Shown piece after piece: positions 4,005 to 33,658 of a stretch of 33,976 nt of DNA. Below the pieces are notes generated by a model. It ran no database searches and was not told the DNA's origin. It worked only from the letters and a program-made list of their open reading frames with translations. The number at the start of each line of letters is the position of its first letter. Position 1 is the stretch's first letter. The DNA comes from a virus. Position numbers and translations under genes: made by a program. The stretch lies in IMG/VR virus record IMGVR_UViG_3300015202_000033, positions 1-33,976 of that record. One strand, given 5' to 3'.

Positions 4005-4210
4005 CCACCCGCGAGCAGCTCACCGCCATCGTCGCCCGCTTCCTGTGGTGGTCGGGCATGAAGACCACCAGCCCAAGCCCGCCACATCACCTTCTGGAGG
4101 CTCTGGAGCGGCACCATGCCTCCGGGCTGGTCGACTACGTCACGCTCTACGTGGCCCATCCCGACGCCAGGACCTTCGGCCCCAAGGTGACCGCCTTGGC
4201 TTCCGCATGA
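4001..4210 (+). CDS. hypothetical small protein at the operon end
   Basis: A 69-residue protein starting MTTREQLTAIVARFLWWSGM, with an ATGA overlap to the previous gene. The sequence FLWWSG...HHLLEALERHHASGLVDYVTLYVAHPDA looks like a compact helical protein. Its last 64 bases are also the end of the convergent minus-strand gene (4147-4479). It is the last plus-strand gene of the coupled block. Function unknown. Confidence 0.5.
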   Translation: MTTREQLTAIVARFLWWSGMKTTSPSPPHHLLEALERHHASGLVDYVTLYVAHPDARTFGPKVTALASA

Positions 4211-4479
4211 GCCGCCGCCACCCCTGACACCCGCGCCTTCTCGGCGGCCCGTTCCTCGCGCAGGCGCGCAGCGTGCTCAAGCATCCGGGCCAACCCCAGA
4301 GCACGAGCCGCCGCCACCTCCGCGGTCACCACGCGCCGGGGGGCCTCTGCGGCAGCCTCATGCATGACGCACCGCCGCCTCAGGGTGCCGTCGTCGAGAG
4401 CAACCACCCGGGCCTGACACTGCCCCCCGTCGGGCCGGATAGCCTCGCACTGTGGCCTGTCGCGCTTGTGGACGCGCAC
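4147..4479 (-). CDS. small Cys/His-motif protein, convergent
   Basis: A 110-residue protein on the minus strand starting at GTG 4479. The N-terminus reads PQCEAIRPDGGQC, then RRRCVMH: Cys-x9-Cys-x15-Cys-x2-His, a short zinc-knuckle-like motif of the type often seen in small phage proteins. The rest is an Ala/Arg/Glu-rich helix (VVTAEVAAARALGLARMLEH). Codons end mostly in G or C. It lies three bases after the stop of the upstream minus-strand gene, so the two are probably one transcript. Its 3' end overlaps the plus-strand operon tail by 64 bases. Confidence 0.55.
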   Translation of the reverse strand: MRVHKRDRPQCEAIRPDGGQCQARVVALDDGTLRRRCVMHEAAAEAPRRVVTAEVAAARALGLARMLEHAARLREERAAEKARVSGVAAAHAEAKAVTLGPKVLASGWAT

Positions 4480-4482
4480 GGG

Positions 4483-4743
4483 TCAGCCCCAGCCCCCGAG
4501 CATCGACCGCCGGTGAGCGGCCACGCGGCAGCAGACCCGGTGCTCCAGGTAGAAACGGGCCAACCGCGCCAGGGTCACGCCTGCGTCTGCCACCTGAGTT
4601 GGCGCCTTCTCGCCGCACCAGGCGCAGCCCGGAGCGGGGCAAGGGGGGACGGCGGCGGGAGGCTTCATGCCAGGAGCATGACACATAAGACTCGCGTGCG
4701 CCCCCGCGTGTCTACGCATGCGAGGGTGTGGGGTTTCTGACAC
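4483..4743 (-). CDS. small Cys/His-rich protein, first gene of the minus-strand pair
   Basis: An 86-residue minus-strand frame from GTG 4743; an internal ATG (MKPPAAVPPCPAPGCAWCGE) could be the true start. It carries CPAPGCAWCGE and, downstream, HRVCCRVAAHRR, again a Cys/His pattern. No clear ribosome-binding site is visible. The tandem operator-like pair at 4809-4842 lies 66 bases upstream, where a promoter for this gene would be expected. A competing plus-strand frame (4273-4740) has no homology-like features, so I prefer the minus strand. Confidence 0.45.
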   Translation of the reverse strand: MSETPHPRMRRHAGAHASLMCHAPGMKPPAAVPPCPAPGCAWCGEKAPTQVADAGVTLARLARFYLEHRVCCRVAAHRRSMLGGWG

Positions 4744-4808: not shown

Positions 4809-4842
4809 GTGTCCATTCGTTCACTTGTGACCATTCGTTCAT
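4809..4842. promoter_or_regulatory. tandem operator-like palindromes upstream of the minus-strand genes
   Basis: Two 16-bp units, GTGTCCATTCGTTCAC (4809-4824) and GTGACCATTCGTTCAT (4827-4842), separated by TT. Each is an imperfect interrupted palindrome of the family GTGAAC-N4-GTTCAC found at four other clusters in the window. The 11-bp core CCATTCGTTCA is identical in both. Here the period is 18 bp rather than 16. Binding by a regulator is inferred. Confidence 0.55.
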
Positions 4843-5048
4843 GCCTTGCGGTGGACGGGTACGCCTTGCTCTCCTTAACAGGTGGCGACGGGGACACTCC
4901 GGGTCGTAGCGACGCCTGCGGGGGCTCGTGGCGACCGGGGTCACCGTGGCAGGTGGCTGCCGCGACACCGCAGACAGGTGGCTGCTTGGGCGACCGCAGC
5001 GCCATGCCAGAGCCTAAAGGCGCAGTGGCGAGGGGATGCAACACGTTC

Positions 5049-5111
5049 CCCTTGAGTCCAGACCCCGGAGGTGTAAACTCAGGTTTACACCCCGGGGTCT
5101 GGACTCAAGGG
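5049..5111. repeat. 63-nt near-perfect palindrome / long hairpin
   Basis: The outer arms are CCCTTGAGTCCAGACCCCGG (5049-5068) and its exact reverse complement (5092-5111), 20 bp. After one unpaired A (5069) the inner arms GGTGTAAAC (5070-5078) and GTTTACACC (5083-5091) pair for 9 more bp around the 4-base loop TCAG. There is no T-run on either side, so it is not a typical intrinsic terminator. The inner GTAAAC-N4-GTTTAC differs by one base per half from the operator family. Possible roles: protein-binding palindrome, replication or resolution site, or structured RNA. Confidence 0.85.
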
Positions 5112-5236
5112 TAAGGCCATGCGTTCCGCGCGGGTCGCTGGCAGGCCTCGGGGGACCGCGTGACACACGGCGCGCACACCCTGACGACCGTCAAAGTGTT
5201 CGCCGGGACCATGACGCAGCGCGCAGGGGGTGCCGT

Positions 5237-5268
5237 GTGAACTACTGGTTACGGTTACATGTGGTACC
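5237..5268. promoter_or_regulatory. tandem operator-like pair
   Basis: GTGAACTACTGGTTAC (5237-5252) is followed directly by GGTTACATGTGGTACC (5253-5268), a 16-bp period. The first unit differs at few positions from GTGAACCACTGGTTAC at 11979-11994. The second unit is more divergent. It lies in non-coding DNA about 350 bases before the gene at 5616. Confidence 0.5.
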
Positions 5269-5339
5269 AGGTGGGGGGCCGCCTCACTTTTCCTGACATG
5301 GGTGGGGGTAGGCGCACCCTGGGGGAAACTTTATCTCCG

Positions 5340-5361
5340 CGCATACGCCGCGCATACGCTG
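5340..5361. repeat. 11-bp direct repeat
   Basis: CGCATACGCCG (5340-5350) and CGCATACGCTG (5351-5361) are adjacent and differ by one base; a partial third copy, CGCA, follows. Located in the non-coding control region. Confidence 0.6.
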
Positions 5362-5434
5362 CGCACATGTAGGCGTAGGCGCCCGTGGGAGCGACGCCGG
5401 CGCAGGGCGTACATGCAGGCGCGGGTGCACGTGG

Positions 5435-5470
5435 GAGCCTGACGCCTGCGAGCCTGACGCCTGCGAGCCT
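5435..5470. repeat. 15-bp tandem repeat, 2.4 copies
   Basis: GAGCCTGACGCCTGC is present at 5435-5449 and 5450-5464, followed by the first six bases of a third copy (GAGCCT, 5465-5470). The copies are identical. Iteron-like in form, in non-coding DNA; function not shown. Confidence 0.7.
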
Positions 5471-5615
5471 GGCCAGGTAGTCCCGAGGCCCGTGCGTGGT
5501 GGCGACCGGGGGCGTCGTGGCGTAGGGGTACCAGCTACAGGCTTGACCTGTAGGCTTGGAGCTCCCCTGGAGCGAAAGTGTAACAGGCGAGGCCAGGGCG
5601 TGTCAAGATGCGGAC

Positions 5616-5870
5616 ATGACCACGGATGCGAATGTGCAGTTGAAGACCCGAGCCAGGGCGTTGGCGGCAAGCTCGGGACTGACCTTCGACGAGGCGCTGG
5701 TGCTGTTGCGGGCGCAGGTGGGCGCGGACCTCGAGGCGGATGTCAGGGCGGCACCGGTGCGCCCGCGCATCGGGGTGAACACCCGCGGGGGGATGGGGGT
5801 GATAGGCCGCACCCGGGGAACCGCCTCTGGCACACCCGTGGCTAAATCCGAAGGAATCGTGTTACCTTGA
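5616..5870 (+). CDS. hypothetical small protein
   Basis: An 84-residue protein from ATG 5616 (MTTDANVQLKTRARALAASS). The start is chosen because the frame upstream (to 5556) lies in repeat-flanked non-coding DNA, and the sequence becomes protein-like from here. The N-terminal 50 residues look like two amphipathic helices (VQLKTRARALAASSGL, FDEALVLLRAQVGADLEADV); the rest is Gly/Arg-rich and probably flexible. A TTGACC hexamer at 5543-5548 could be a -35 element, but I see no matching -10. Function unknown. Confidence 0.5.
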   Translation: MTTDANVQLKTRARALAASSGLTFDEALVLLRAQVGADLEADVRAAPVRPRIGVNTRGGMGVIGRTRGTASGTPVAKSEGIVLP

Positions 5871-5875
5871 CACGC

Positions 5876-6298
5876 ATGGCGCTAAACAACGCAGCCTCGA
5901 CCCTAGATCAGGCACAAACGCTGCTGGGCGCCCAGAGCGTGGAAATCAAGCGGCTGGTGGTCAAGGTGGAACCCGCGATGGCGGCTCCGTCCAAGGTGCG
6001 CGTGCTGCTGTGGGTGGCGGCGGCGAGCGATGCTGTGGCGCTGACTACCGGGCCGTGGACGGTGGCGCTCGCGCTGATGCTGCCGGTGACACGGGGGTAC
6101 CTCTCGGCCGAGGTCCGGTCGGATGCGGACTACGCGGCGGCACAGAACCCCGCCACGTCGGCGGCGTTCCTCACGCAGCTGGAACCCCTGTTTCAGCCCG
6201 AGGTACACGCCAATCCGAGCTACGTGACTCCCGATGACCCAACGGCGTTTGCGCTGAGCGAGTCGGCGCGCTGCTTAGGGAAGCGGGGACCAGTTTGA
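5876..6298 (+). CDS. hypothetical protein
   Basis: A 140-residue protein starting MALNNAASTLDQAQTLLGAQ. The ATG at 5876 is preferred to the TTG at 5867, which overlaps the previous stop. No strong ribosome-binding site is near; an AAGGA lies more than 20 bases upstream. A short inverted repeat CGTGT...ACACG (5858-5874) ends just before the ATG. The central part (VRVLLWVAAASDAVALTTGPWTVALALMLP) is hydrophobic but broken by polar residues. The C-terminal half is acidic and proline-containing. No family recognised. Confidence 0.5.
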   Translation: MALNNAASTLDQAQTLLGAQSVEIKRLVVKVEPAMAAPSKVRVLLWVAAASDAVALTTGPWTVALALMLPVTRGYLSAEVRSDADYAAAQNPATSAAFLTQLEPLFQPEVHANPSYVTPDDPTAFALSESARCLGKRGPV

Positions 6299-6440
6299 CC
6301 GCGCAGGCCACGCGGGGAAGTGTTCTCCGTACACCAGCGCGAGGTCGCATTTCGCAGCGGCGAAGGTGGCCCGGTCGGCAGCGGTGACGATAGATATGGG
6401 TCAGAGCCTTTCCGTGTCAGTGTGAGCGATGGCTCAGGGT

Positions 6441-6472
6441 GTATCCCAAGGATTACGTGAACGGCAGTTGAC
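6441..6472. promoter_or_regulatory. tandem operator-like pair before the RHH gene
   Basis: GTATCCCAAGGATTAC (6441-6456) is followed directly by GTGAACGGCAGTTGAC (6457-6472). The 12-mer GATTACGTGAAC at the junction is repeated exactly at 7149-7160. The right half of the second unit contains the -35-like TTGAC, so a protein bound here would cover the proposed promoter of the RHH gene. Confidence 0.55.
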
Positions 6473-6496
6473 GATGACGTTACTGTGCGCTACACG
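6468..6496 (+). promoter_or_regulatory. putative sigma70-type promoter of the RHH gene
   Basis: TTGACG (6468-6473) matches the -35 consensus at five of six bases and is followed after 17 bases by TACACG (6491-6496), a weak -10 (three of six). Transcription would start around 6503-6504, at the ATG of the RHH gene, implying a leaderless message; no ribosome-binding site is visible. The -10 is weak, so the call is tentative. Confidence 0.35.
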
Positions 6497-6503
6497 CATG
6501 GTC

Positions 6504-6701
6504 ATGGCCTCTGCGAAGGTGCAGCTCAAGGAATCAACGGTGTTGCTGCGGGCGGCCCCCGATCTGTTTGAAGACCTGGCGAGGTGGACGGACCGCCTGA
6601 ACAGCCACGACGAAGGGCCGCGCTGGACGCGGGCCGAGGTCATGAGGGTGGCGCTGCGGAGAGCCCTGCGGGAGCGCGGCGAGAAGGGGGAACTGCCATG
6701 A
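6504..6701 (+). CDS. ribbon-helix-helix (Arc/CopG-type) DNA-binding protein
   Basis: A 65-residue protein with an RHH layout: a short strand (STVLLR, 11-16), helix A (DLFEDLARWTDRLN, 20-33), a turn with GPRWTRAE, and helix B (AEVMRVALRRALRERGE, 44-60). RHH dimers insert a two-stranded sheet into the major groove of palindromic operators, usually as tandem dimers. The tandem palindromes at 6441-6472 lie directly upstream and overlap its promoter, suggesting autoregulation (inference). Starts at 6498, 6474 or 6429 are also in frame; 6504 is chosen because the promoter geometry points there. Its stop overlaps the next start (ATGA). Confidence 0.65.
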   Translation: MASAKVQLKESTVLLRAAPDLFEDLARWTDRLNSHDEGPRWTRAEVMRVALRRALRERGEKGELP

Positions 6702-6883
6702 ACTACGACCCACCGGAATTCTGCATCACTCGCAACCACGACGGCAGCTACACGGTGGCCCTGGGAGACATCCATGGCCTCGCCCGCGACACAGAGGCCG
6801 AGGCCCTGGTGGACATCTGCGGGCGCATCGGGCGCTGCGTCGATCGGCTCATGTCCATCGGCGGCAAGGGGAGGCGGGCGTGA
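6698..6883 (+). CDS. small hypothetical protein (61 aa)
   Basis: A 61-residue protein beginning MNYDPPEFCITRNHDGSYTV. The pattern of a strand FCITRNHDGSYTVALGD followed by a helix (TEAEALVDICGRIGRCVDRLMS) looks like a small alpha/beta protein. It is coupled by ATGA to the RHH gene and by GTGA to the next gene, so the three are probably one operon leading up to the terminase. Function unknown. Confidence 0.55.
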   Translation: MNYDPPEFCITRNHDGSYTVALGDIHGLARDTEAEALVDICGRIGRCVDRLMSIGGKGRRA

Positions 6884-7116
6884 AACCCGGCATGAGCACA
6901 GCGATCGACGCCATGGTCAAGCGCTGGAAGAAGGCGTTTCCGCAGGCTACCGTCATCCGCGAGAAGACGCCCGAGGGGGACGTCGTCGGGCTGCGCATCG
7001 GGCGGCACGAACTGACTCACCTCATCGACGACCGAATGCGGGTGAGCTTGCTCCACAGCGTGGAGAGTTGCACGGCCGACGCGGTACGACGGTTCCTGGA
7101 GAAGAGCATCCGGTAG
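6880..7116 (+). CDS. small hypothetical protein upstream of terminase
   Basis: A 78-residue protein from GTG 6880 (an ATG at 6892 is also possible). It reads AIDAMVKRWKKAFPQATVIREKTPEGDVVGLRIGRHELTHLIDD and ends with a basic helix (ADAVRRFLEKSIR). Its position next to the large terminase gene is where a small terminase subunit is often found, but it is short and lacks a recognisable helix-turn-helix, so I leave it unnamed. Confidence 0.55.
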   Translation: MKPGMSTAIDAMVKRWKKAFPQATVIREKTPEGDVVGLRIGRHELTHLIDDRMRVSLLHSVESCTADAVRRFLEKSIR

Positions 7117-7138
7117 GCCCCGCCCTCGCCCGAAAACT

Positions 7139-7170
7139 GTGAACCGCAGATTACGTGAACAGTAGTTCAC
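7139..7170. promoter_or_regulatory. tandem operator-like pair before the terminase gene
   Basis: GTGAACCGCAGATTAC (7139-7154) is followed directly by GTGAACAGTAGTTCAC (7155-7170). The second unit is a perfect interrupted palindrome (GTGAAC-N4-GTTCAC). The pair ends 22 bases before the terminase GTG at 7193. TTCACG (7166-7171) sits where TTGACG sits at the RHH gene, so a promoter in the same position is possible, although no good -10 is seen. Confidence 0.6.
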
Positions 7171-7192
7171 GGTTCGTGCTACGGTCCTGCTC

Positions 7193-8773
7193 GTGGTGGC
7201 ACCACGGGCAAGTCCTCGCAAACCTAGCGCCAAGCGCGCCGCGGAGCCTCAGGCGATCCGTCCGCTGCCCTTCGTTGGGTTTGCGGATGCCGTGCTTCGC
7301 CTTCGGCTGACGACGGCTCAGTTCGTTTACGGACGAGTTGCCTTCGACGGCGTTGACCCGATCGACCTGCCCGAGGAGCTGCGCCCGATCGCTCTCGACC
7401 TCTTCGGGGGGGCGGAGCGCATCCCTTCGGCGGTGCGGCGCATTCTCGTCCTTCGGGCGGGTCGGGCCTCCGGGAAAACCCTACTCGCTGCGGCGTACTC
7501 GGTCTGGAGGATGGCTTACGCCGACCTCGGCCAGTGCGGCCCGGGCGACAAGCCGACGGCGTTCATTGTCTCGCCCCGCGTCAGCAAGCAGTCGCGCATT
7601 GCGTTCCGCGACGCGAAAGAGTTCTGCGACCGCGCCGCGGGTGTCCTCGGCTGGACGCTCGTGGCCGCGAGCGCCGACAGCCTGGAGTACACGCGAGGCG
7701 ACGGGGCGACCGTGGCCTTTGAGTCGGCGGCGAAGTCCAAGGGCGGCGATGCCATCCGAGGCTTCAGCATCATCAGCCTGATCGTCGACGAGAGCGAGTA
7801 TATCGCGCCGAACGACCCGGGATCGATGGTGTCGGACGGCGAGATTATCGCCGCGGCCATCCCCCGGCTGATCAAGGGATCGTCGGCCATCCTCATCTCG
7901 ACGCCCTGGCCTGCGGAGTCGACCACGTCGGTGCTGTTTGACAAGAACTTTGGAGCACCGTCGACGGCGCTCGTCGCGCGGGCGCCGACGGTGACGATGC
8001 GCGACAACGACCCGGATGTCGTGGCGATGGTCGCGGCGGAGCGAGAGCGCGACCCATCAAACGCCCTGCGCGAGTTTGACTGCATCCTCTCGGATGTCGC
8101 GGGGATGTTCTTCGAGACGAACACCATCGATCGCGCCGTTCTCGCAGGCGCCACGTTCGTTCCGACCGGGCGCCATGCGAGCGCGGGGATGGATCTAGCG
8201 TTCCGTCACGACTCTTCGGGACTCATCGTGGTCGAGCGATCACTCGGCATCGTCGCTGTCACGCGCGTGGAACTCGAGCGACCTTCGCCAGGCAGCCCGC
8301 TCGTGCCGTCGGTCGTCATCACCTTCTTCGCCAAGCGCGCCCGGGAAGTCGGCGCGAGCACCTGCGCGACCGACCAGCACTACATCGAAACGGCGATCGA
8401 GCACGGGAGCAAAGCCGGCATGACCGTGCTTCCCGCGCTCGCGTCGGGCGAGCAACGCGACAAGGCGTTTCTCTACCTGCGCGACCTACTTCGCGAGGGG
8501 CGCCTCGCGCTCCCGAACGACTCGCGGCTCATTCACCAGCTCCGCTCTGTCAGCGCTCGACCCAAGCCCGGAGGTGGGCTCGGCATCTTGCTACCGCGCA
8601 CCATCGGCAACGGCCACGCGGACCTTGTTTCCGCGCTCATCCAGGCCGTGTGGCTAGACCGCCGCTTCGGTTTGATCACTACCCCTCATGACAACGTGAC
8701 CCCGCTCCGAGCACGGCAGGGGATGCGCCCCGACGCGCTCTTTGCGACCGGCTCTGTCTTCTCGAGGTTCTGA
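7193..8773 (+). CDS. terL: terminase large subunit (ATPase and nuclease)
   Basis: A 526-residue protein that cuts and pumps DNA into the prohead. The ATPase part shows Walker A GRASGKT (90-96), Walker B ISLIVDESE with the Asp-Glu pair at 199-200, and a coupling motif ILISTPW (233-239). The RNase H-like nuclease part has the expected acidic residues: D334 in AGMDLAFRHDSSG, D394 in CATDQHYIE, and D477 in GNGHADLVSALIQAVW. The length is normal for the family, and it precedes the portal gene as in Mu (gp28). Two adjacent GTG codons (7193, 7196) can start it; no strong ribosome-binding site is visible. The operator pair 7139-7170 lies directly upstream. Confidence 0.93.
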   Translation: MVAPRASPRKPSAKRAAEPQAIRPLPFVGFADAVLRLRLTTAQFVYGRVAFDGVDPIDLPEELRPIALDLFGGAERIPSAVRRILVLRAGRASGKTLLAAAYSVWRMAYADLGQCGPGDKPTAFIVSPRVSKQSRIAFRDAKEFCDRAAGVLGWTLVAASADSLEYTRGDGATVAFESAAKSKGGDAIRGFSIISLIVDESEYIAPNDPGSMVSDGEIIAAAIPRLIKGSSAILISTPWPAESTTSVLFDKNFGAPSTALVARAPTVTMRDNDPDVVAMVAAERERDPSNALREFDCILSDVAGMFFETNTIDRAVLAGATFVPTGRHASAGMDLAFRHDSSGLIVVERSLGIVAVTRVELERPSPGSPLVPSVVITFFAKRAREVGASTCATDQHYIETAIEHGSKAGMTVLPALASGEQRDKAFLYLRDLLREGRLALPNDSRLIHQLRSVSARPKPGGGLGILLPRTIGNGHADLVSALIQAVWLDRRFGLITTPHDNVTPLRARQGMRPDALFATGSVFSRF

Positions 8774-8776
8774 CCC

Positions 8777-9085
8777 ATGGCTCATCTCCTGCTGCGCTGC
8801 GAACTGTTCGAGGGATCAACGATGCTGCGCAACGTCGCAGACATCGAGCACTCCACGCTTTGCAACGCATTCTCCCTCGACCCTTGCTCGCACTGGTTCG
8901 ATCTGCCGCGCTCCGCGCAGGACATGCGTCAGGGCGCGGCGGGCCGCCACATCAACGGGCTTGTCTTCCGCGGGCCGAAGGGTACCGCGCCGGTTGGGAA
9001 GCTCACCGTGGCCCGCGACGGGGAACGGTTCGCTGACTCCGACGGCAGCGATCCGCGCGAGTTCTTCAACCTTTCCCGGAGCTGA
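8777..9085 (+). CDS. hypothetical protein between terminase and portal
   Basis: A 102-residue protein starting three bases after the terminase stop. It contains FEGSTMLRNVADIEHSTLCNAFSLDPCSHWF and, near the end, GKLTVARDGERFADSDGSDPREFFNLSRS. No transmembrane segment or known motif is evident. Its place in the packaging module suggests a head or packaging accessory role, which is inference only. Confidence 0.6.
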   Translation: MAHLLLRCELFEGSTMLRNVADIEHSTLCNAFSLDPCSHWFDLPRSAQDMRQGAAGRHINGLVFRGPKGTAPVGKLTVARDGERFADSDGSDPREFFNLSRS

Positions 9086-9087
9086 AG

Positions 9088-9237
9088 ATGTTCGACATCT
9101 ACGCCGCGAAGAAGCCCCCGCCTCCCAAACCATCGAAGCCCAAGTCTGCGGGTCTCGAGGAGAAGTGGAAGCCCGGGCAGAAACCAACCTGGGGTCCCGA
9201 AGGGCCCTCGTTCCCCATCAAAAAGAAGAAGCCATGA
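9088..9237 (+). CDS. small Lys/Pro-rich protein (49 aa)
   Basis: A 49-residue protein beginning MFDIYAAKKPPPPKPSKPKS and ending PSFPIKKKKP. It is very basic and proline-rich, so probably unfolded, and could bind nucleic acid or the acidic surface of a partner (inference). The frame is supported by a two-base gap after the previous stop and an ATGA overlap with the next start. Short basic proteins like this are easily missed by gene finders. Confidence 0.6.
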   Translation: MFDIYAAKKPPPPKPSKPKSAGLEEKWKPGQKPTWGPEGPSFPIKKKKP

Positions 9238-9650
9238 CGCAAGAGCTGCAGCCGATCCGCACTCAGATCAACGACAACTCCGTGCGTCGCAAGCGCTTCG
9301 GTCTGATGCAGGCACGCATCGACACCACGCACGTGTGGACCTGGAAAGAGAAGGGCAAGATGCGCCCGTTTCTGAAGCAGGTTCAGATCTCAAACATCAT
9401 CGATGCGGTGGACGATTCGGGGGAGAAAACCCTGACGATGCTCTACTGCCTGAAGTGCCAGGCACTCGCCGAGACGCTCGAGCAGCTGACCAAAGAGCAC
9501 GATGTCAAGGAGATGACGCAGCTCGAGCAGCAGCACGTCTACCTCTACATCTCGAGCAAGAACGGCCCTGACGGCCAGCCCGAGGCGTTTTACTCGACCG
9601 AGGCATTAGCGACCGATGGCCTTTTCGCCTTCGATCGACCCGTTCTCTGA
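9234..9650 (+). CDS. hypothetical protein upstream of portal
   Basis: A 138-residue protein starting MTQELQPIRTQINDNSVRRK. It has RIDTTHVWTWKEKGKMRPFL, a CLKCQALAETLEQLTKEH segment and a C-terminal strand-rich part (QQHVYLYISSKNGPDGQPEAFY). The ATG at 9234 is chosen for the ATGA overlap, although the frame stays open far upstream. Its last 35 bases overlap the portal gene. Function unknown. Confidence 0.6.
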   Translation: MTQELQPIRTQINDNSVRRKRFGLMQARIDTTHVWTWKEKGKMRPFLKQVQISNIIDAVDDSGEKTLTMLYCLKCQALAETLEQLTKEHDVKEMTQLEQQHVYLYISSKNGPDGQPEAFYSTEALATDGLFAFDRPVL

Positions 9651-11178
9651 CCACCCGCTTTCGGGCCCCGGCATGATCCGAAGCACGGGCCCGGCGGGCG
9701 GAGTTCCGTCGATCGTCGACCAGTTCGGAAAGGTCGTCCCCGTCCTAAACGACCCGGCGTTTCAACCCCCGGTCGACCCGCTAACGAACCTGGTAGGCCG
9801 AGCCGATGTCATTCAGCGCGACATCCCGAACGTCGTCGTTCAGACAGGCTGGGATGTCGGCGGCGTGCGCGCAGCCATCGGCGAACTCGTCGTCGGACTC
9901 TTCGACACACCTGGCCAGCTCGTCGACAGCATCTGCGCCGACTCGCGAGTCAAGGCGGCCATGGCCAGCCTTCACGGCTCGCTCTTCGGCCGCCCTATCA
10001 CCTTCGATGTCCCCAAGCGTCTGAAGGGCTCCAGCGCCGCGCAGGAGGCCCTCGATGACTGGCGCGAGTGCTGGCCCAGGATGGCCACCGAAGCGGCCAT
10101 GGCGGAACTGGACCTGTGGAGTGAGATGCTTGGATTCGGACTGGCGCCGATGGTGTGGGACACGTCGGGCGACCTCTCGATTCCGATTCTGAAACCCTGG
10201 CATCCGCGCTTCGTCTACTACCACTGGACCTATCGATGCTTCGTCGCGCTCACGCTCGACGGGCAGGTCCCGATAGCCACCGGCGATGGCACGTGGCTCA
10301 TGCACGCGCCGCACGGGGAACAGCGCGGCTGGATGCGGGGCAGCATGTGGGGCGTCGCTCCCTGGTGGCTCGCGCGCAACTACGGGCTGCGAGACTGGGC
10401 CCGATGGAGCGAGCGGCACGGGTTCCCGATGCTGCTGGCGAAAACCCCGGCCGCTGGCGACCCGAATCAGATCGCCCTGTTTCAGGCATCGCTCGCGGGG
10501 CTCGGGCAGGAGTCGGTGATCCAGATCCCCCAGGGCGTCGATGCTCAGTACTCCTACGGGTTGGAGTACCTCGAGCCGAGCGATCCAGCGTGGCAGGGAT
10601 TCCAGCAACTCATCGACGCCTGCGGGATGGAAATCACGCTCGCGCTCATGAGCCAGAACCTCACCACCGAGGTGAAGGAAGGCAGCTTCGCTGCCGCCCG
10701 CGTCCACGGCGACGTGAAGCAGGTTCGCGTGGAGTCGAAAGCGCGCGGATGGGAGCAGACGATCCAGCGGCAGCTCGCGCGCCCGTTCTGCCTGATGAAT
10801 CACGGGGACCCCGACCTTGCGCCCGTCGCGACGTGGGACGTGAGCCCCGAAGAGGACAAGCGCGAGAAGAGCCTGACGATGATGTCGTTCGCGCAAACGC
10901 TGAACTACCTCCGCGTCGCGGGCGTGAAGCTCGTCGACCCCGCGCAGCTCGCCAAGCAGGTCGGGATCGATCTCGGCGAGTACGAGCACGTTGACCCGCT
11001 GCAAGTCGAGGCGAAGGTCGCTCAGACCGGCAAGAACGTGAGCGAGGACGACGTGGGAACGCCCGCGTCGGATGACGACCCGGCGCCTGACGTTCCCCGC
11101 GTCGTGAAGCCAGGCAAGCAGAAGCCCAGCAAACCGAAGCCCTCCGGGCAGAAGGACGACGATGCCGACGCCGCGTAA
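9616..11178 (+). CDS. portal protein (DUF935, Mu gp29-like)
   Basis: A 520-residue portal protein, the dodecameric ring through which DNA enters the capsid. Features consistent with the Mu gp29 (DUF935) family are the region after residue 100 (VDSICADSRVKAAMASLHGSLFGRP), the conserved WARWSERHGFPMLLAKTP segment (about 260-275), GLEYLEPSDPAWQGFQQLID, and the stem region near EITLALMSQNLTTEVKEGSFAAARVHGDV. The last 50 residues are Lys/Pro/Asp-rich and probably disordered. It follows terminase as in Mu. No separate gpF-like minor head gene follows; the protease gene overlaps its end by 17 bases. Confidence 0.88.
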   Translation: MAFSPSIDPFSDHPLSGPGMIRSTGPAGGVPSIVDQFGKVVPVLNDPAFQPPVDPLTNLVGRADVIQRDIPNVVVQTGWDVGGVRAAIGELVVGLFDTPGQLVDSICADSRVKAAMASLHGSLFGRPITFDVPKRLKGSSAAQEALDDWRECWPRMATEAAMAELDLWSEMLGFGLAPMVWDTSGDLSIPILKPWHPRFVYYHWTYRCFVALTLDGQVPIATGDGTWLMHAPHGEQRGWMRGSMWGVAPWWLARNYGLRDWARWSERHGFPMLLAKTPAAGDPNQIALFQASLAGLGQESVIQIPQGVDAQYSYGLEYLEPSDPAWQGFQQLIDACGMEITLALMSQNLTTEVKEGSFAAARVHGDVKQVRVESKARGWEQTIQRQLARPFCLMNHGDPDLAPVATWDVSPEEDKREKSLTMMSFAQTLNYLRVAGVKLVDPAQLAKQVGIDLGEYEHVDPLQVEAKVAQTGKNVSEDDVGTPASDDDPAPDVPRVVKPGKQKPSKPKPSGQKDDDADAA

Positions 11179-13006
11179 CGCCGCTCGAGCGCCCGCCCGC
11201 GCGCTCTTCCGCACCCACGCCGAGCAGGGCGAACTGCTCGCGCTCTCGCCCGAAGCAATCGGCGTCACGTTCGCGTTCGGAGCCGACGAGCCTGAGACGA
11301 ACGTGACGGAGGACGGGGTCGGGATCGTCTCGATTCAGGGCCCGTTGCAGCACCACACCAGCTGGATGTGGGACTCCTACGATGCGATTCTCTCGCGCGT
11401 CGAGACAGCACTCTGTGACGACTCCGTCAAGGCGCTTGTCCTTCGCTTCGACTCGCCCGGCGGAGAAGCCGCCGGCATGACCGAGGCGCACAAGAAGATC
11501 CGCCGCCTGCGCAAGCAGTATGGAAAGCCCATCTTCGGGTACTCCGACGAGTACGCGTGCAGCGCCGCCTACGGGCTCATCTCCGCGTGTGACGAGGTCT
11601 GGCTCCCCGATACCGGGGGCGTCGGAAGCGTCGGCGTCATCGCCACGCTGCTGGACGCGACCAAGAAAAACAAGCGCGAAGGCATCAGGGTAGAGCTCGT
11701 CACGACCGGGGCTCGCAAGACGGACTCCCACCCCGACCGCGTACTCACGGATGAGATCGTAGCCGTCATCCAGTCGCGGGTGAACGCCCTGCGAGACGTG
11801 TTCTTCGGGCTCGTTTCCGAAGCCCGAGGCATCTCCGTTGAAGCCATCGACGCCCTGCAAGCTGGCGTTTTCATTGGCCCGCAGGCGGTTGAGGCCGGCC
11901 TGGCCGATGGCGTAGCACCTTTCGATCAGTTCTTGACACTCGTGACGAACTCGGCGATTACTGTGAACAACGGTTCACGTGAACCACTGGTTACAGTCGC
12001 CCCGGCCGTGGCTGCCACCTCGAAGGAAAACTCTATGAGCGCGAAGCTTCTCACCTTGACTCAGCGGCGCGACCGCGCTGCAGCCGCGTTCGGTGCGGCA
12101 TCCTCCGAGGCGGACAAGAAGGTCCTCCTCTCCAAACTTGAGAGGGCCTCGCTGGCGCTCTCCAACGCCAAGGACCAGTCGAAGCCTAAGTCCAAGCTCT
12201 CCCCGAAAGCGAAGGCCAAACTCTCCCCGAAGGCTTCTGCCAAGTCTCCGATCCGCGCCGCTGCTGACAGCGAAGAGGAAGAGGAAGAGGAGGAGGACGA
12301 AGAGGAGGAGGAGGAGACTTCCGCCGCCGACGGCGACCCCCCCGACGACGACGACTCCGACCCGGACGACGACTCCGACGACGAGGACGAAGACGAAGAC
12401 GAGGAGGAAGAGGAGGACGAGGAAGAGGAAGAGGAGGAAGAGGAGGACGAGGAAGAGGCCAAGGCCCAGGCAAAGGACTTCCTGACGGGGAAGCTCGGCC
12501 GTCGCTACGCCCCCTCGAGGCTTCTCGCCCTGGTCAAGCACGCCACGGGCGCGAAGAGCGTGCAGGCTGCATTCGGCGCTGTCGCGGCGCTGAAGACCGA
12601 GAAAGCCAGCGTGCGGAAGATGAGCGCGCGGCTTGCGAAGCTCGAAGCCTCGGCGCGCGCTGAGAAGGTCGAGACGATGCTGACGACCGCCAAGCGGGAC
12701 GGGAAGATTACCCGAGCGCAGTCCGTCGACCGCGGGGGCAAGAGCCTCCACGCGAAGGGCATGAAAGATCACAAGTTCCTCTCGGGGTTCCTGGGTGGAC
12801 TTCCGAAGCGCATTCGCACCGAGGAGGACGGCTCGTTCGTTCCCCGTGCGGATTCCAAGGGGGCCCCGATCGGCGCTCCCTCCGGAAGCGACCAGGAGAA
12901 GATTCTCGCCGCGGCTGGCGTGGGTCTCTCGGGCGCGGAACTCGCCGCCTTCCACGCGAAAATGACTGAGTCGATGGCCAAGGTCGCCACCGCCAAGAGC
13001 TTCTGA
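11162..13006 (+). CDS. S49-type prohead protease fused to scaffold (Mu gpI-like)
   Basis: A 614-residue polypeptide. Residues about 50-265 are an SppA-like S49 serine protease (ClpP/crotonase fold): LVLRFDSPGGEAAGM, the nucleophile S134 in YACSAAYGL, the segment GGVGSVGVIA, and K186 in TTGARKTDSHP. The 52-residue Ser-Lys spacing equals that of bacterial SppA. Residues 292-614 are the scaffold: a basic Lys/Pro/Ala repeat stretch, then an almost pure Glu/Asp tract (about 370-433), then a helical C-terminus. Phage Mu has the same arrangement (gpI with gpZ in frame). The protease processes the prohead and releases the scaffold. An internal start at 12035 yields the scaffold alone. Confidence 0.9.
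   Translation: MPTPRNAARAPARALFRTHAEQGELLALSPEAIGVTFAFGADEPETNVTEDGVGIVSIQGPLQHHTSWMWDSYDAILSRVETALCDDSVKALVLRFDSPGGEAAGMTEAHKKIRRLRKQYGKPIFGYSDEYACSAAYGLISACDEVWLPDTGGVGSVGVIATLLDATKKNKREGIRVELVTTGARKTDSHPDRVLTDEIVAVIQSRVNALRDVFFGLVSEARGISVEAIDALQAGVFIGPQAVEAGLADGVAPFDQFLTLVTNSAITVNNGSREPLVTVAPAVAATSKENSMSAKLLTLTQRRDRAAAAFGAASSEADKKVLLSKLERASLALSNAKDQSKPKSKLSPKAKAKLSPKASAKSPIRAAADSEEEEEEEEDEEEEEETSAADGDPPDDDDSDPDDDSDDEDEDEDEEEEEDEEEEEEEEEDEEEAKAQAKDFLTGKLGRRYAPSRLLALVKHATGAKSVQAAFGAVAALKTEKASVRKMSARLAKLEASARAEKVETMLTTAKRDGKITRAQSVDRGGKSLHAKGMKDHKFLSGFLGGLPKRIRTEEDGSFVPRADSKGAPIGAPSGSDQEKILAAAGVGLSGAELAAFHAKMTESMAKVATAKSF
11963..11994. promoter_or_regulatory. tandem operator-like pair inside the protease-scaffold gene
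   Basis: GTGAACAACGGTTCAC (11963-11978, a perfect interrupted palindrome) is followed directly by GTGAACCACTGGTTAC (11979-11994). The pair lies in the codons for the linker between protease and scaffold, 40 bases before the internal scaffold start. The junction forms GGTTCACGTGAACC (11972-11985), which resembles parS, but the 16-bp period ties it to the other clusters. Confidence 0.6.
12035..13006 (+). CDS. scaffolding protein from internal start (Mu gpZ-like)
   Basis: The in-frame ATG at 12035 (Met 292 of the fusion, MSAKLLTLTQRRDR) is preceded by GAAGGA at 12022-12027 with seven bases of spacing, a good ribosome-binding site inside a coding region. The product is 323 residues: a helical start, a Lys/Pro/Ala-rich stretch (KSKLSPKAKAKLSPKASAK), about 60 residues almost all Glu/Asp, and a C-terminal helical region ending in AKVATAKSF. 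It would assemble the prohead shell in excess over the protease form. This nested expression is established for Mu I/Z; here it is inferred from the start site. Confidence 0.7.
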   Translation: MSAKLLTLTQRRDRAAAAFGAASSEADKKVLLSKLERASLALSNAKDQSKPKSKLSPKAKAKLSPKASAKSPIRAAADSEEEEEEEEDEEEEEETSAADGDPPDDDDSDPDDDSDDEDEDEDEEEEEDEEEEEEEEEDEEEAKAQAKDFLTGKLGRRYAPSRLLALVKHATGAKSVQAAFGAVAALKTEKASVRKMSARLAKLEASARAEKVETMLTTAKRDGKITRAQSVDRGGKSLHAKGMKDHKFLSGFLGGLPKRIRTEEDGSFVPRADSKGAPIGAPSGSDQEKILAAAGVGLSGAELAAFHAKMTESMAKVATAKSF

Positions 13007-14142: not shown

Positions 14143-15162
14143 ATGTTGATCACCCCGACGAACCTGAATCTCTTCTTCACCGCCCTCGAGAACCGCTTCT
14201 GGATGGCGTACGGGGTGGCCGACGTTTGGAACCCCAAGATCGCGCAGACCCTGCCGGTAAGCTCAGAGCTATGGACCTCCGGCTGGATCGGAATGGTCGA
14301 TCAGTATCGGCTCTGGGACGGCCCCCGCGTTGTTCGCGAGCCTGCGCCACAGACGTACACCGTCGTCATACAGCCCTTCGAGCTGACCGAGTCGATCGAC
14401 CAGTTCAAGCTGCAGGACGACACGTACGGCATCTACAACGCGACCATCCCCTTCATGGGCCTGCAGGCCAAGAAGCTGCCGGACTACCAGATCCGGGACC
14501 TCTTGCAGAATGTCAAGGCCCAGACCGGTGTCCGCCAGCTCGGCACCGACGGCCTTACGCACTTCAGCACCGCGCATCCGATCGACTTTTACGACGCCTC
14601 CAAGGGCACGTACTGCAACGACTTCCGCGGCGCCGCAGGCTTCGTGGTGAACACCGTCAACGTCGGTGGCGCGTTCACGACCACGGGATTCAACACCCTC
14701 TGGCAGGAGTTCGCCTCTCGCAAGTCGGAGTCGGGCGAGGCCCTTGGCATCACGCCGAACCTCGTCATGGGCCCCATGCAGCTGAAGGGCGCGATGATGA
14801 CGGTTCTTCAGAGCCAGTTCTTCGGACCCCCGCAGCTCAACGGGCTCGGCACCGGTGCCGTGGGCACGCCCAACGCGCCCTTCGTCGGCGCGTTGGATAA
14901 CCCCCTGAAGGGGTGGACCGATCTGCTTCACAACGCCGATCTGAACGGCCAGCCGAACACCTGGTACATGATGTGTACCAACGGGCCGATGATGCCCTTC
15001 AACTGGCTTCAGCGCGAGGCCCCCGACTTCGTGCCGCGCATCCAGCCCGGCGATCCCGTCGTGTTCGAGCAGCACAAGATTCTGTACGGCTCGCGCGCTC
15101 GGGGGGCTCCCGCGTGGGGCCTTCCCTTCCTGTCGGCGATCAGCAACGGCGGCGTGGCCTGA
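14143..15162 (+). CDS. major capsid protein (Mu gpT-like)
   Basis: A 339-residue protein, the main shell subunit. It begins MLITPTNLNLFFTALENRFW, typical of the gpT family (LT..NL..LF..F...F), has the G-loop/E-loop region around LWDGPRVVREPAPQTYTVVIQPFEL, and ends with VFEQHKILYGSRARGAPAWGLPFLS, matching the conserved gpT C-terminus (a large-residue strand followed by G..WGL). An AAGGA site lies at 14129-14133. Position after scaffold and decoration genes and before the DUF1320 connector fits Mu order. Confidence 0.88.
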   Translation: MLITPTNLNLFFTALENRFWMAYGVADVWNPKIAQTLPVSSELWTSGWIGMVDQYRLWDGPRVVREPAPQTYTVVIQPFELTESIDQFKLQDDTYGIYNATIPFMGLQAKKLPDYQIRDLLQNVKAQTGVRQLGTDGLTHFSTAHPIDFYDASKGTYCNDFRGAAGFVVNTVNVGGAFTTTGFNTLWQEFASRKSESGEALGITPNLVMGPMQLKGAMMTVLQSQFFGPPQLNGLGTGAVGTPNAPFVGALDNPLKGWTDLLHNADLNGQPNTWYMMCTNGPMMPFNWLQREAPDFVPRIQPGDPVVFEQHKILYGSRARGAPAWGLPFLSAISNGGVA

Positions 15163-17263: not shown

Positions 17264-18781
17264 ATGCCAACAGGTGACATTCAGATCACGATTGCCGATG
17301 GCGGCTCCAACATCGTCGTTCCGGCGCAGAACGTCCAGGCGATCATCGGATGCTCCTCGATCGGGACCGTCGCAACCCCGCTGGCGACACGCAGCATCCC
17401 TACGCTGCTGAGCACGTTCGGCGCGGGGCCGCTGGTCGAAGCCGCGGCGCTCGTGATTCGCGCGGGTGGCACGGTCATCGCGACCAAGGCATCCAGCACC
17501 ACGACAGGCTCGGCCAGCGCAGTCATCGCTGGGGTGTCTAACACCAGCACGTCGGTCATCACGGTCACCGGCACCCCGGTGGACACGTACTACGTCGTGG
17601 TCAAGGTGGTGTCCCTCGCCTCCTTTACCATCCTGGCGGGCGGCGCACAGATTCAGATATCGCTCGACGGAGGCCGCCAGTTCTCGCCTTCCATCGCGCT
17701 TCCCGCCGCGACGACATCGTACACGATCCCCGGGCCTGGTACGATCGCCTCGTCGGGCGTCGTCCTGAGCTTCGCCGCTGGCACCCTGGCTCCGGGCGAC
17801 ACCTTTTCTTTCGGCACAATCGAGCCGCTGTGGAACGCCGCGGGCGTCCTCGCCTGCCTTACCGCCCTGCTCGGCAGTCCCTACGCTCAGGCGGGATGGG
17901 GCTCTTCGCAACTGGTCGGCAAGTGCGGCGGGACCGACGTTACTACCATCCAGGGAGCGCTCGACACCAGCGCCACATCCTACCTGTTCCTTCGGCTCAT
18001 CGCCCACACGCGCGACGTGTCGCCCGCCGTCAAGTGGGGCGGCACGGCCGAGACCGAGGCCAACTGGCTGGGAAGCACCGGCACCGGCATTGCGTTCGAT
18101 TACAGCGCGGTGAACGCGAAGCGCTCGTGCGTGAACGCGGGACACTACAACATGCCGACGGCGCTTCCGATCTTGGGAACCGCATTCCGCTACCGCCGCC
18201 CGCTCAGCTTCGCGCTCGGCGCTCGTGCGGTGCAGATCCCCCCCCAGCGCCACGCAGGGCGTGTTCGGGACGGCTCGCTCGGCAACGTGACGATCGACCC
18301 CGTGAACGACCCGAGCGACGGGTTTGTCTACCACGACGAGCGCATTACCCCCGCGCTTGACGCGGCGCGGTTCAGCACGGCCCGTACGCGCATCGGCGTC
18401 CCCGGTCTCTTCATCACGAACCCGAACCTCATGAGCGCCCCGGGCTCTGACTTCTCGATTCTGCCGCTCGGCAACGTCATCGATGTCGCCTGCTCGATCG
18501 TGCATCAGGTCGGGCAGAACGTCATCAACTCCGACGTGCGGGCGAACCTCAACGGCACGCTCTATGAGAACGACGCGCGAGGCATAGAGACCTCGCTCTC
18601 GAGCGCGCTGGCGAGCGGCATGACGGCGCAGCAGATGATCAGCGCCGCTGTCGTTGTGGTCGACCGCACCACCAACGTGCTTACGACCAAGGCGGTCAAC
18701 GTCACGGTGACTGTCACTAGCCGCGGGTACATCCTGCAAGAGAACGTAACGATCGGGTTCGCGAACACGAACGCCGCGTGA
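17264..18781 (+). CDS. tail sheath protein
   Basis: A 505-residue protein forming the contractile tail sheath. Size, place directly before the tube gene, and the C-terminal segment (VINSDVRANLNGTLYENDAR, then VTSRGYILQENVTIGFANT) fit the phage sheath family of Mu-like viruses (gpL, or the DUF2586 variant). The middle has an inserted beta-rich domain (DTYYVVVKVVSLASFTILAGG, QISLDGGRQFSPS), which in sheaths lies on the outer surface. Gene starts three bases after the previous stop. Confidence 0.85.
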   Translation: MPTGDIQITIADGGSNIVVPAQNVQAIIGCSSIGTVATPLATRSIPTLLSTFGAGPLVEAAALVIRAGGTVIATKASSTTTGSASAVIAGVSNTSTSVITVTGTPVDTYYVVVKVVSLASFTILAGGAQIQISLDGGRQFSPSIALPAATTSYTIPGPGTIASSGVVLSFAAGTLAPGDTFSFGTIEPLWNAAGVLACLTALLGSPYAQAGWGSSQLVGKCGGTDVTTIQGALDTSATSYLFLRLIAHTRDVSPAVKWGGTAETEANWLGSTGTGIAFDYSAVNAKRSCVNAGHYNMPTALPILGTAFRYRRPLSFALGARAVQIPPQRHAGRVRDGSLGNVTIDPVNDPSDGFVYHDERITPALDAARFSTARTRIGVPGLFITNPNLMSAPGSDFSILPLGNVIDVACSIVHQVGQNVINSDVRANLNGTLYENDARGIETSLSSALASGMTAQQMISAAVVVVDRTTNVLTTKAVNVTVTVTSRGYILQENVTIGFANTNAA

Positions 18782-19696: not shown

Positions 19697-19866
19697 TCGA
19701 GTCCCTCCGTGCAGACCAGCGGCGGGACCTGGGGTCGTTTGGCGATGGTCTGGCGGACCTCTTCGCAGGGCGTCCCACGCTCGGCGCGGAGGCATCAGCT
19801 CGCAGCCTGGCGGAGGCGATTCTGCTGCACCGCAAGTGGATCCACGACCAGTACGAGAAGGACTGA
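19693..19866 (+). CDS. downstream frame of the tail chaperone pair
   Basis: A 57-residue frame (MIESLRADQRRDLGSFGDGL ... RKWIHDQYEKD) in the -1 phase relative to the upstream chaperone gene. Its ATG overlaps that gene's stop (ATGA at 19693-19696), so it can be made by reinitiation, or as a C-terminal extension if ribosomes slip back one base on the A-run at 19689-19693. Overlapping frames made by frameshifting are typical of tail chaperones before the tape measure. No separate function is recognised. Confidence 0.6.
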   Translation: MIESLRADQRRDLGSFGDGLADLFAGRPTLGAEASARSLAEAILLHRKWIHDQYEKD

Positions 19867-33025: not shown

Positions 33026-33658
33026 GTGCTCGCCATTCTGGACGTGTCGGAGCTTCAGGGCCCCATCGACTGGCCCGCCGTCGCGTCCAGCGGCGTGGAT
33101 GCCGTGTGGATCCGCGCCTGCGAGGGGGTGACGCCTGACGCAGAGTTCGCGCGCAACTGGGCCGGGGCGCGCTCCGTCGGTCTGCCCCGCGGCGCCTACA
33201 CCTTCCTCCGGGCGCGGCACACTGCCGACGATCTGGGGGCGGCGCTGCTGCGGCAACTGGGCAGCGACGCGGGCGAACTCCCCGTCATGCTCGACGCGGA
33301 GACTCTCGACGGCGCCCAGCGCCCCGCGTTCGTGGAGCTCATCGGCGACCTGGCCGATCTGGTCGACCTCGAGCTGGACCGCGGGCCCTTGCTCTACACC
33401 TACCCCGCATTCTGGGCGCAGCTCCACGCGGTCCGCGCCCCCGCCCTGCCGCTGTGGATAGCCCACTACGGCGTCGAGCGCCCGAGCGTGCCCGTCGGGT
33501 GGAACGACTGGCTCCTGTGGCAGTACACCGGCACCGGGCGCTGTCCCGGGGTGTCCACCATCGTCGACCGCTCAAGGTTCCGCGGCACCCTGGACGAGCT
33601 GCTCGCGCTCGGAGTGTCGCCGATGGTCGACGCCCCGACCGAGCCGGTGGCCGCGTGA
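33026..33658 (+). CDS. GH25-type lysozyme (endolysin)
   Basis: A 210-residue protein from GTG 33026. It matches glycoside hydrolase family 25 (muramidases cutting between N-acetylmuramic acid and N-acetylglucosamine): catalytic-type D6 in AILDVSELQGPIDWPAV, the strand PRGAYTFLRA, D90 and E92 in LPVMLDAETL, then LLYTYPAFWAQL, LWIAHYGV and WLLWQYTGTGRCPGV with the final VDRSRFRG. Length is normal for a single GH25 domain with no cell-wall binding domain. It would degrade host peptidoglycan at lysis. Its stop overlaps the next start (GTGA). Confidence 0.85.
   Translation: MLAILDVSELQGPIDWPAVASSGVDAVWIRACEGVTPDAEFARNWAGARSVGLPRGAYTFLRARHTADDLGAALLRQLGSDAGELPVMLDAETLDGAQRPAFVELIGDLADLVDLELDRGPLLYTYPAFWAQLHAVRAPALPLWIAHYGVERPSVPVGWNDWLLWQYTGTGRCPGVSTIVDRSRFRGTLDELLALGVSPMVDAPTEPVAA

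Follow-up and report, generated by a model that had tools for sequence, protein, structure and literature searches.

What do the tandem palindromes that recur ahead of the packaging and head genes of this phage do, and is there one regulator that reads them all? The window analysed here is the whole of an IMG/VR virus record (33,976 bp) from a GC-rich phage with a contractile tail, and its relevant features are collected in Table 1. An earlier note on this DNA had described five tandem clusters of the pattern GTGAAC-N4-GTTCAC, suggested that they form an undescribed regulon and put forward two candidate binding proteins, a ribbon-helix-helix (RHH) protein encoded at 6504 and a PadR protein encoded at 2421. 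All unit coordinates and sequences were reproduced on re-checking, including the perfect (12/12) copies at 7155–7170 and 11963–11978 and the 12-mer (GATTACGTGAAC) common to 6451–6462 and 7149–7160. The expectation that perfect units should be rare was borne out by dinucleotide shuffles (two in the window, none in the shuffles); units matching at least 11 of 12 positions number three against 0.04 expected, and abutting pairs matching at least 18 of 24 occur at three positions against 0.01 expected. Loose matching with three mismatches allowed gave no enrichment (16 seen, 11.4 expected), which leaves the strong units, and their pairing, to carry the claim. A weight matrix that was built solely from units found in other phages and disregarded the loop gave the same sites the highest ranks in the window, and when the window was compared with 200 shuffles only 0 to 0.02 comparable pairs were seen per shuffle. 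Of the five clusters, the pairs at 7139 and 11963 and the weaker ones at 6441 and 4809 stand, but 5237–5268 has just one convincing unit (15/16 identical to 11979–11994), the adjoining 5253–5268 matching at 6/12 and being too poor to count. The sites are dispersed over 7 kb.

Table 1. Positions of the palindromic sites and of genes in the window, with matrix scores and the number of comparable matches per shuffle
Feature	Position	Strand	Comment
Period-18 pair, GTGTCCATTCGTTCAC-TT-GTGACCATTCGTTCAT	4809..4842	.	27.0; 0.0 per shuffle
Single convincing unit, GTGAACTACTGGTTAC	5237..5252	.	10/12; 0.36 per shuffle by score
Tandem pair, GTATCCCAAGGATTAC then GTGAACGGCAGTTGAC	6441..6472	+	16.5; 0.02 per shuffle
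65-aa protein, earlier called RHH (identity unsupported)	6504..6701	+	
Tandem pair, GTGAACCGCAGATTAC then GTGAACAGTAGTTCAC	7139..7170	+	pair score 36.2; 0.0 per shuffle
Candidate −10, TACGGT	7180..7185	+	predicted; candidate −35 TGAACA at 7156–7161, in right-hand unit
Terminase large subunit (TerL)	7193..8773	+	PHROG 2, E 4e-16; downstream of 7139 pair; GTG start 7193
Portal	at 9616		
S49 head maturation protease with C-terminal scaffold part	11162..13006	+	PHROG 53, PF01343
Tandem pair, GTGAACAACGGTTCAC then GTGAACCACTGGTTAC	11963..11994	+	pair score 36.2; 0.0 per shuffle
Major head protein	at 14143		
Sheath	at 17264		
Tape measure	at 19709		
GH25 lysin	at 33026		

The two strongest pairs lie close to starts of translation. 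The 7139 pair ends 22 nt before the GTG of TerL, and the 11963 pair falls within the linker that follows the S49 domain of the protease/scaffold ORF, 41 nt before an internal ATG (12036). This ATG is a putative start for a scaffold protein nested in the protease ORF, an arrangement comparable to lambda Nu3; within 11950–12040 the scaffold part has its own ATG together with an AGGA ribosome site, and further into the scaffold part there is a very long Glu/Asp-rich stretch (12265–12460). The 6441 pair precedes the small gene at 6504, and its GTTGAC variant yields a −35-like hexamer (TTGACG) with TACACG 17 bp further on, as judged by eye. The weaker 4809 pair stands before leftward genes at about 4147–4743. 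Its two units are direct copies (GTGnCCATTCGTTCAy) with an identical loop, so the pair may have arisen by local duplication; since periods of 17 and 18 are also present in other phages (L026, L038, L040 and L021), the period of 18 alone is no objection to it.

The same site arrangements recur in L005 and L006, two contigs that hardly differ from the window along most of their length and so carry little independence. In 2.9 million viral contigs, exact scans for the zero-gap tandem pattern found it only in relatives near-identical to the window and in one further contig (L010, here called G001; IMG/VR 3300046517_001043, 33,272 bp, 68% GC), which is distant from the window (protease 35%, portal 24% and major head protein 20% identity). 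In G001 one pair is separated by 15 nt, GGAGG among them, from the ATG of an HTH gene of small-terminase-like type, after which comes TerL; the other lies 19 nt before the protease ATG. When a gap of 0–30 was allowed the pattern was found in 21 contigs, among them L026, in which a period-17 pair ends 41 nt before a small gene (called small-terminase-like by position alone) with TerL directly after it; this TerL is confirmed by a PHROGs match and 48% identity to an annotated terminase. A counterpart of the window TerL is absent from G001, and blastp of L026 against the window and against G001 gave no matches. By these comparisons, three packaging operons whose TerL proteins share no detectable pairwise similarity are all preceded by the same pair. 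On a rough estimate, with some twelve tight pairs spread over about seven lineages, the chance of lying less than 50 nt before a terminase is well under 1% per site, and three terminase-proximal pairs far exceed that expectation. The one control palindrome scanned in the same collection was present in nine contigs, with tight pairs in none.

Possession of the site does not follow descent of the virion genes. L018, the closest structural relative, shares 37–38% identity with the window in portal, protease, head and sheath, more than G001 does, and yet lacks the site. No convincing sites were found in Myxococcus phage Mx4 or Rctr16k, the motif was not found upstream of the terminase in the named phages whose terminases most closely match the L026 and G001 enzymes, and none of the named phage records holds a full-length pair. 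As presence of the site is independent of structural kinship, the regulator would go with the host or move separately. In two named phages whose terminases are akin to the G001 enzyme (L088, 1850–1935, and L089, 1590–1655), a TTGACA promoter-like sequence and then a different inverted repeat come right before the small terminase gene. A further contig, L040, has between 4600 and 13800 a series of repeated units in its intergenic regions, each with a GGTAGGC element; some of the units have a terminator hairpin with a T run ahead of this element, and in four a GTGAAC pair is at the same place.

From the observed sites, their positions and their recurrence we infer binding by dimers, repression and coordination of the genes. 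The pairs are probably DNA operators at which pairs of dimers, most likely acting as repressors, control packaging, head and a few small upstream genes, with the regulator encoded off the contigs; we hold this with somewhat better than even confidence. Each 16-bp palindrome would be bound by one dimer of a helix-turn-helix-type regulator, as the spacing of the GTTCAC half-sites (10 bp centre to centre) would suit a dimer lying along a single helix face, and the 16-bp period (about 1.5 turns) would place two dimers side by side on roughly opposite faces. The operators would lie across or beside the promoters of the terminase genes, the scaffold genes and the few small upstream genes, most likely repressing them until removal of the regulator, which would come from the host or from a phage gene outside the contigs.

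The promoter predictions are in keeping with this, promoter-like matches near the sites exceeding a background of 0.1 per kb. In G001 the protease pair spans the predicted −35 to −10 of a promoter (TTGACG-16-TATGCT) whose −35 lies inside the pair and comes from the GTTGAC variant also present at the window's 6441 site; a weak TGAACA-18-TACGGT ahead of the window TerL overlaps the 7139 pair; and the G001 small-terminase pair appears by eye to begin directly downstream of a −10-like TGTTAT. No promoter was found at the 11963 scaffold site by a sigma-70 scan, which is of little help in DNA of 65–70% GC. Sites stand 15 to 41 nt from start codons and at varying distances from promoter-like elements, and this variable placement favours a repressor over an activator like the C protein of phage Mu. 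Mu C controls the late promoters Plys, PI, PP and Pmom (PMC4461284), and Mu is the closest analogue as regards position, in that one type of site stands before separate late operons, including head and protease/scaffold genes. If the pairs were late-gene activator sites of this kind, terminase and protease/scaffold operons would be switched on late; two of the Mu late promoters do have similar positions (PMC4461284), and the TerL pair would lie at about −53 to −22 of the start predicted from the weak −10. Mu C, however, binds upstream of the −35, whereas the sites here are paired 16-bp palindromes without a fixed distance to start codon or −10-like element, one of which covers a predicted −35 to −10 and another of which seems to lie downstream of a −10. 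Among the window ORFs scanned (part of all ORFs, on a contig that may be incomplete) no Pfam match to the Mor/C family was found. We regard activation as the less likely mode.

The position of the pairs ahead of start codons would also suit an element acting as RNA, that is two tetraloop hairpins in the 5' leader that are bound by a protein or control translation of TerL and scaffold. A 6-bp hairpin is possible in each perfect unit, and the G001 terminase leader, with two perfect units, folds better than its shuffles (z −2.6), but the other six leader folds are ordinary (z 0.14 to −1.49) and their structures disagree with each other. The arm letters are conserved between phages at 20–35% protein identity while the four loop bases vary, and the imperfect arms (GATTAC, GGTTAC and GTTGAC) are mostly opposite a perfect GTGAAC, with compensation absent. 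Conserved arms, a variable loop, uncompensated changes and ordinary folds together favour a protein that reads half-sites in duplex DNA. With no match to Rfam families either, the RNA hairpin was rejected as very improbable.

The nearness of terminase genes in three phages raises another alternative, in which the pairs are pac or cosB-like packaging sites read by the small terminase, or else replication iterons. The same palindrome is indeed clustered in an iteron-like manner beside A-rich tracts in L025 and L027. A single packaging start or origin, however, needs no dispersed copies, and the window, G001 and L040 each carry several, including copies before scaffold and small genes, which counts against this explanation; we give it very little credence. 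Copies of GTGAAC-N4-GTTCAC clustered like replication iterons were seen in seven contigs in all (L024, L025, L027, L033, L035, L036 and L039), several of the clusters lying beside A-rich tracts and apparently within coding sequence.

If the pairs are operators, which protein reads them? The proposal that one regulator acts at all the sites is strengthened as far as a dispersed operator set is concerned, by the terminase sites of G001 and L026 and the protease/scaffold site of G001, but the candidates named for it did not hold up. Contig L006, which is 99% identical to the window from TerL onward and keeps the sites, gave no homologue when searched for the 6504 gene (tblastn E 0.21), and PadR is missing from its syntenic place, which measures 268 bp as against 961 bp in the window; neither protein is thus required, unless encoded elsewhere. 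The 6504 protein gave no Pfam match to RHH and no significant fold match with a single-sequence model (a weak test), so that an RHH protein encoded with the sites was not recovered. In G001 no homologue of either protein was found, and no regulator shared by the window and G001 was found by blastp. The 6504 protein, the 2421 PadR and a shared window/G001 regulator were accordingly rejected as candidates. When the early and leader ORFs were scanned with Pfam, PadR was the sole match.

A host protein is another possible owner, and this would be a version of the operator explanation that names the source of the protein: host LexA (SOS) or another host repressor, for instance of the TetR family, acting at sites that the phages had taken over, would make late genes follow the state of the host. 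The core of actinobacterial LexA boxes, GAAC-N4-GTTC (as in M. tuberculosis, TCGAACAATTGTTCGA; PMC8607333), is present in the perfect units at 7155 and 11963, but their GT/AC flanks are unlike known LexA boxes. Operators of two TetR-family proteins are reported in PMC9210681, RolR (TGAAC-N4-GTTCA) and BioQ (TGAAC-N3-GTTAC), of which the first has the palindrome core and spacing seen here and the second the variant GTTAC half-site; both are regulators of cellular metabolism, and no TetR protein was found in the scanned window ORFs. That the site is present independently of structural relatedness, and missing from L018, also suits a host protein. In a sample of 40 Acidobacteriota and 41 Actinomycetota genomes, perfect single sites were at about the level of chance, giving no sign of a host-wide regulon, with the exception of one Bryobacteraceae genome with seven. 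Perfect zero-gap pairs were not found in bacterial genomes; gapped pairs were present in four, and in one of these, a Paenarthrobacter genome, the pair stands before an MFS-transporter-like gene. We take a host repressor to be a possibility well short of probable. The genome of a Calditrichia MAG (L053, G018) has eight perfect GTGAAC-N4-GTTCAC copies, seven of them GTGAACGATCGTTCAC, which suggests a cellular regulon using the same palindrome.

Phage repressors offer two further comparisons. The CI operators of TP901-1 and phi13 are palindromic and dimer-bound and have a half-site (AGTTCAYR; PMC8516035) nearly identical to (N)GTTCAC, but there the half-sites face the opposite way and serve a genetic switch rather than late operons. 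No CI homologue or CI-like gene was found among the scanned window ORFs, and the sites are dispersed rather than clustered beside a phage repressor gene as in CI-type immunity. Mycobacteriophage L5 has stoperators, many copies of a repressor site spread across a temperate phage genome, and these resemble the present sites as numerous copies of one operator near transcription units; stoperators are short and asymmetric, whereas here paired palindromes are found near terminase and scaffold genes.

How much of this is undescribed needs qualifying. The exact motif was not found in the literature searched, but TGAAC-N4-GTTCA operators are known, as reported for RolR in PMC9210681, and the operator type is a familiar one. 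No description of such a site recurring ahead of terminases that lack detectable sequence similarity turned up in the literature searched, and what is of interest is that unrelated packaging operons share one operator. We would tentatively extend the operator explanation to a broader and doubtful proposal: a single operator, read by the host or by a mobile regulator, may have been independently acquired by phages with unrelated packaging enzymes and have brought packaging and head assembly under a common direct switch, its copies serving also as recombination joints for small cassettes upstream of the terminase. If the operator explanation is true, the late packaging and scaffold genes of an uncultured group of GC-rich phages would be under the direct control of one dimeric regulator with a readable 32-bp site, and regulation would move between phages independently of the genes controlled. 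The site would then be a handle for finding both regulator and host, the 32-bp duplex being a ready bait for isolating the protein.

A role of the sites as joints is suggested by the L006 TerL site (6646–6677), which is chimeric: GTGTATCCCAAAGATTACGTGAACGGCAGTT, as at window 6441, is followed by CACGGTTCGTGCTACGG, as at 7139. The shared core probably served as the joint at which the cassette with the 6504 gene, missing from L006, was lost or gained, the full second unit being retained. Between the 4809 and 5237 sites the window also has a large inverted repeat (5033–5127) with 36-nt arms that are 81% complementary and an inner 15-nt dyad (5064–5097); GTAAACTCAGGTTTAC lies at its centre, it has no T run, and it is kept in L006.
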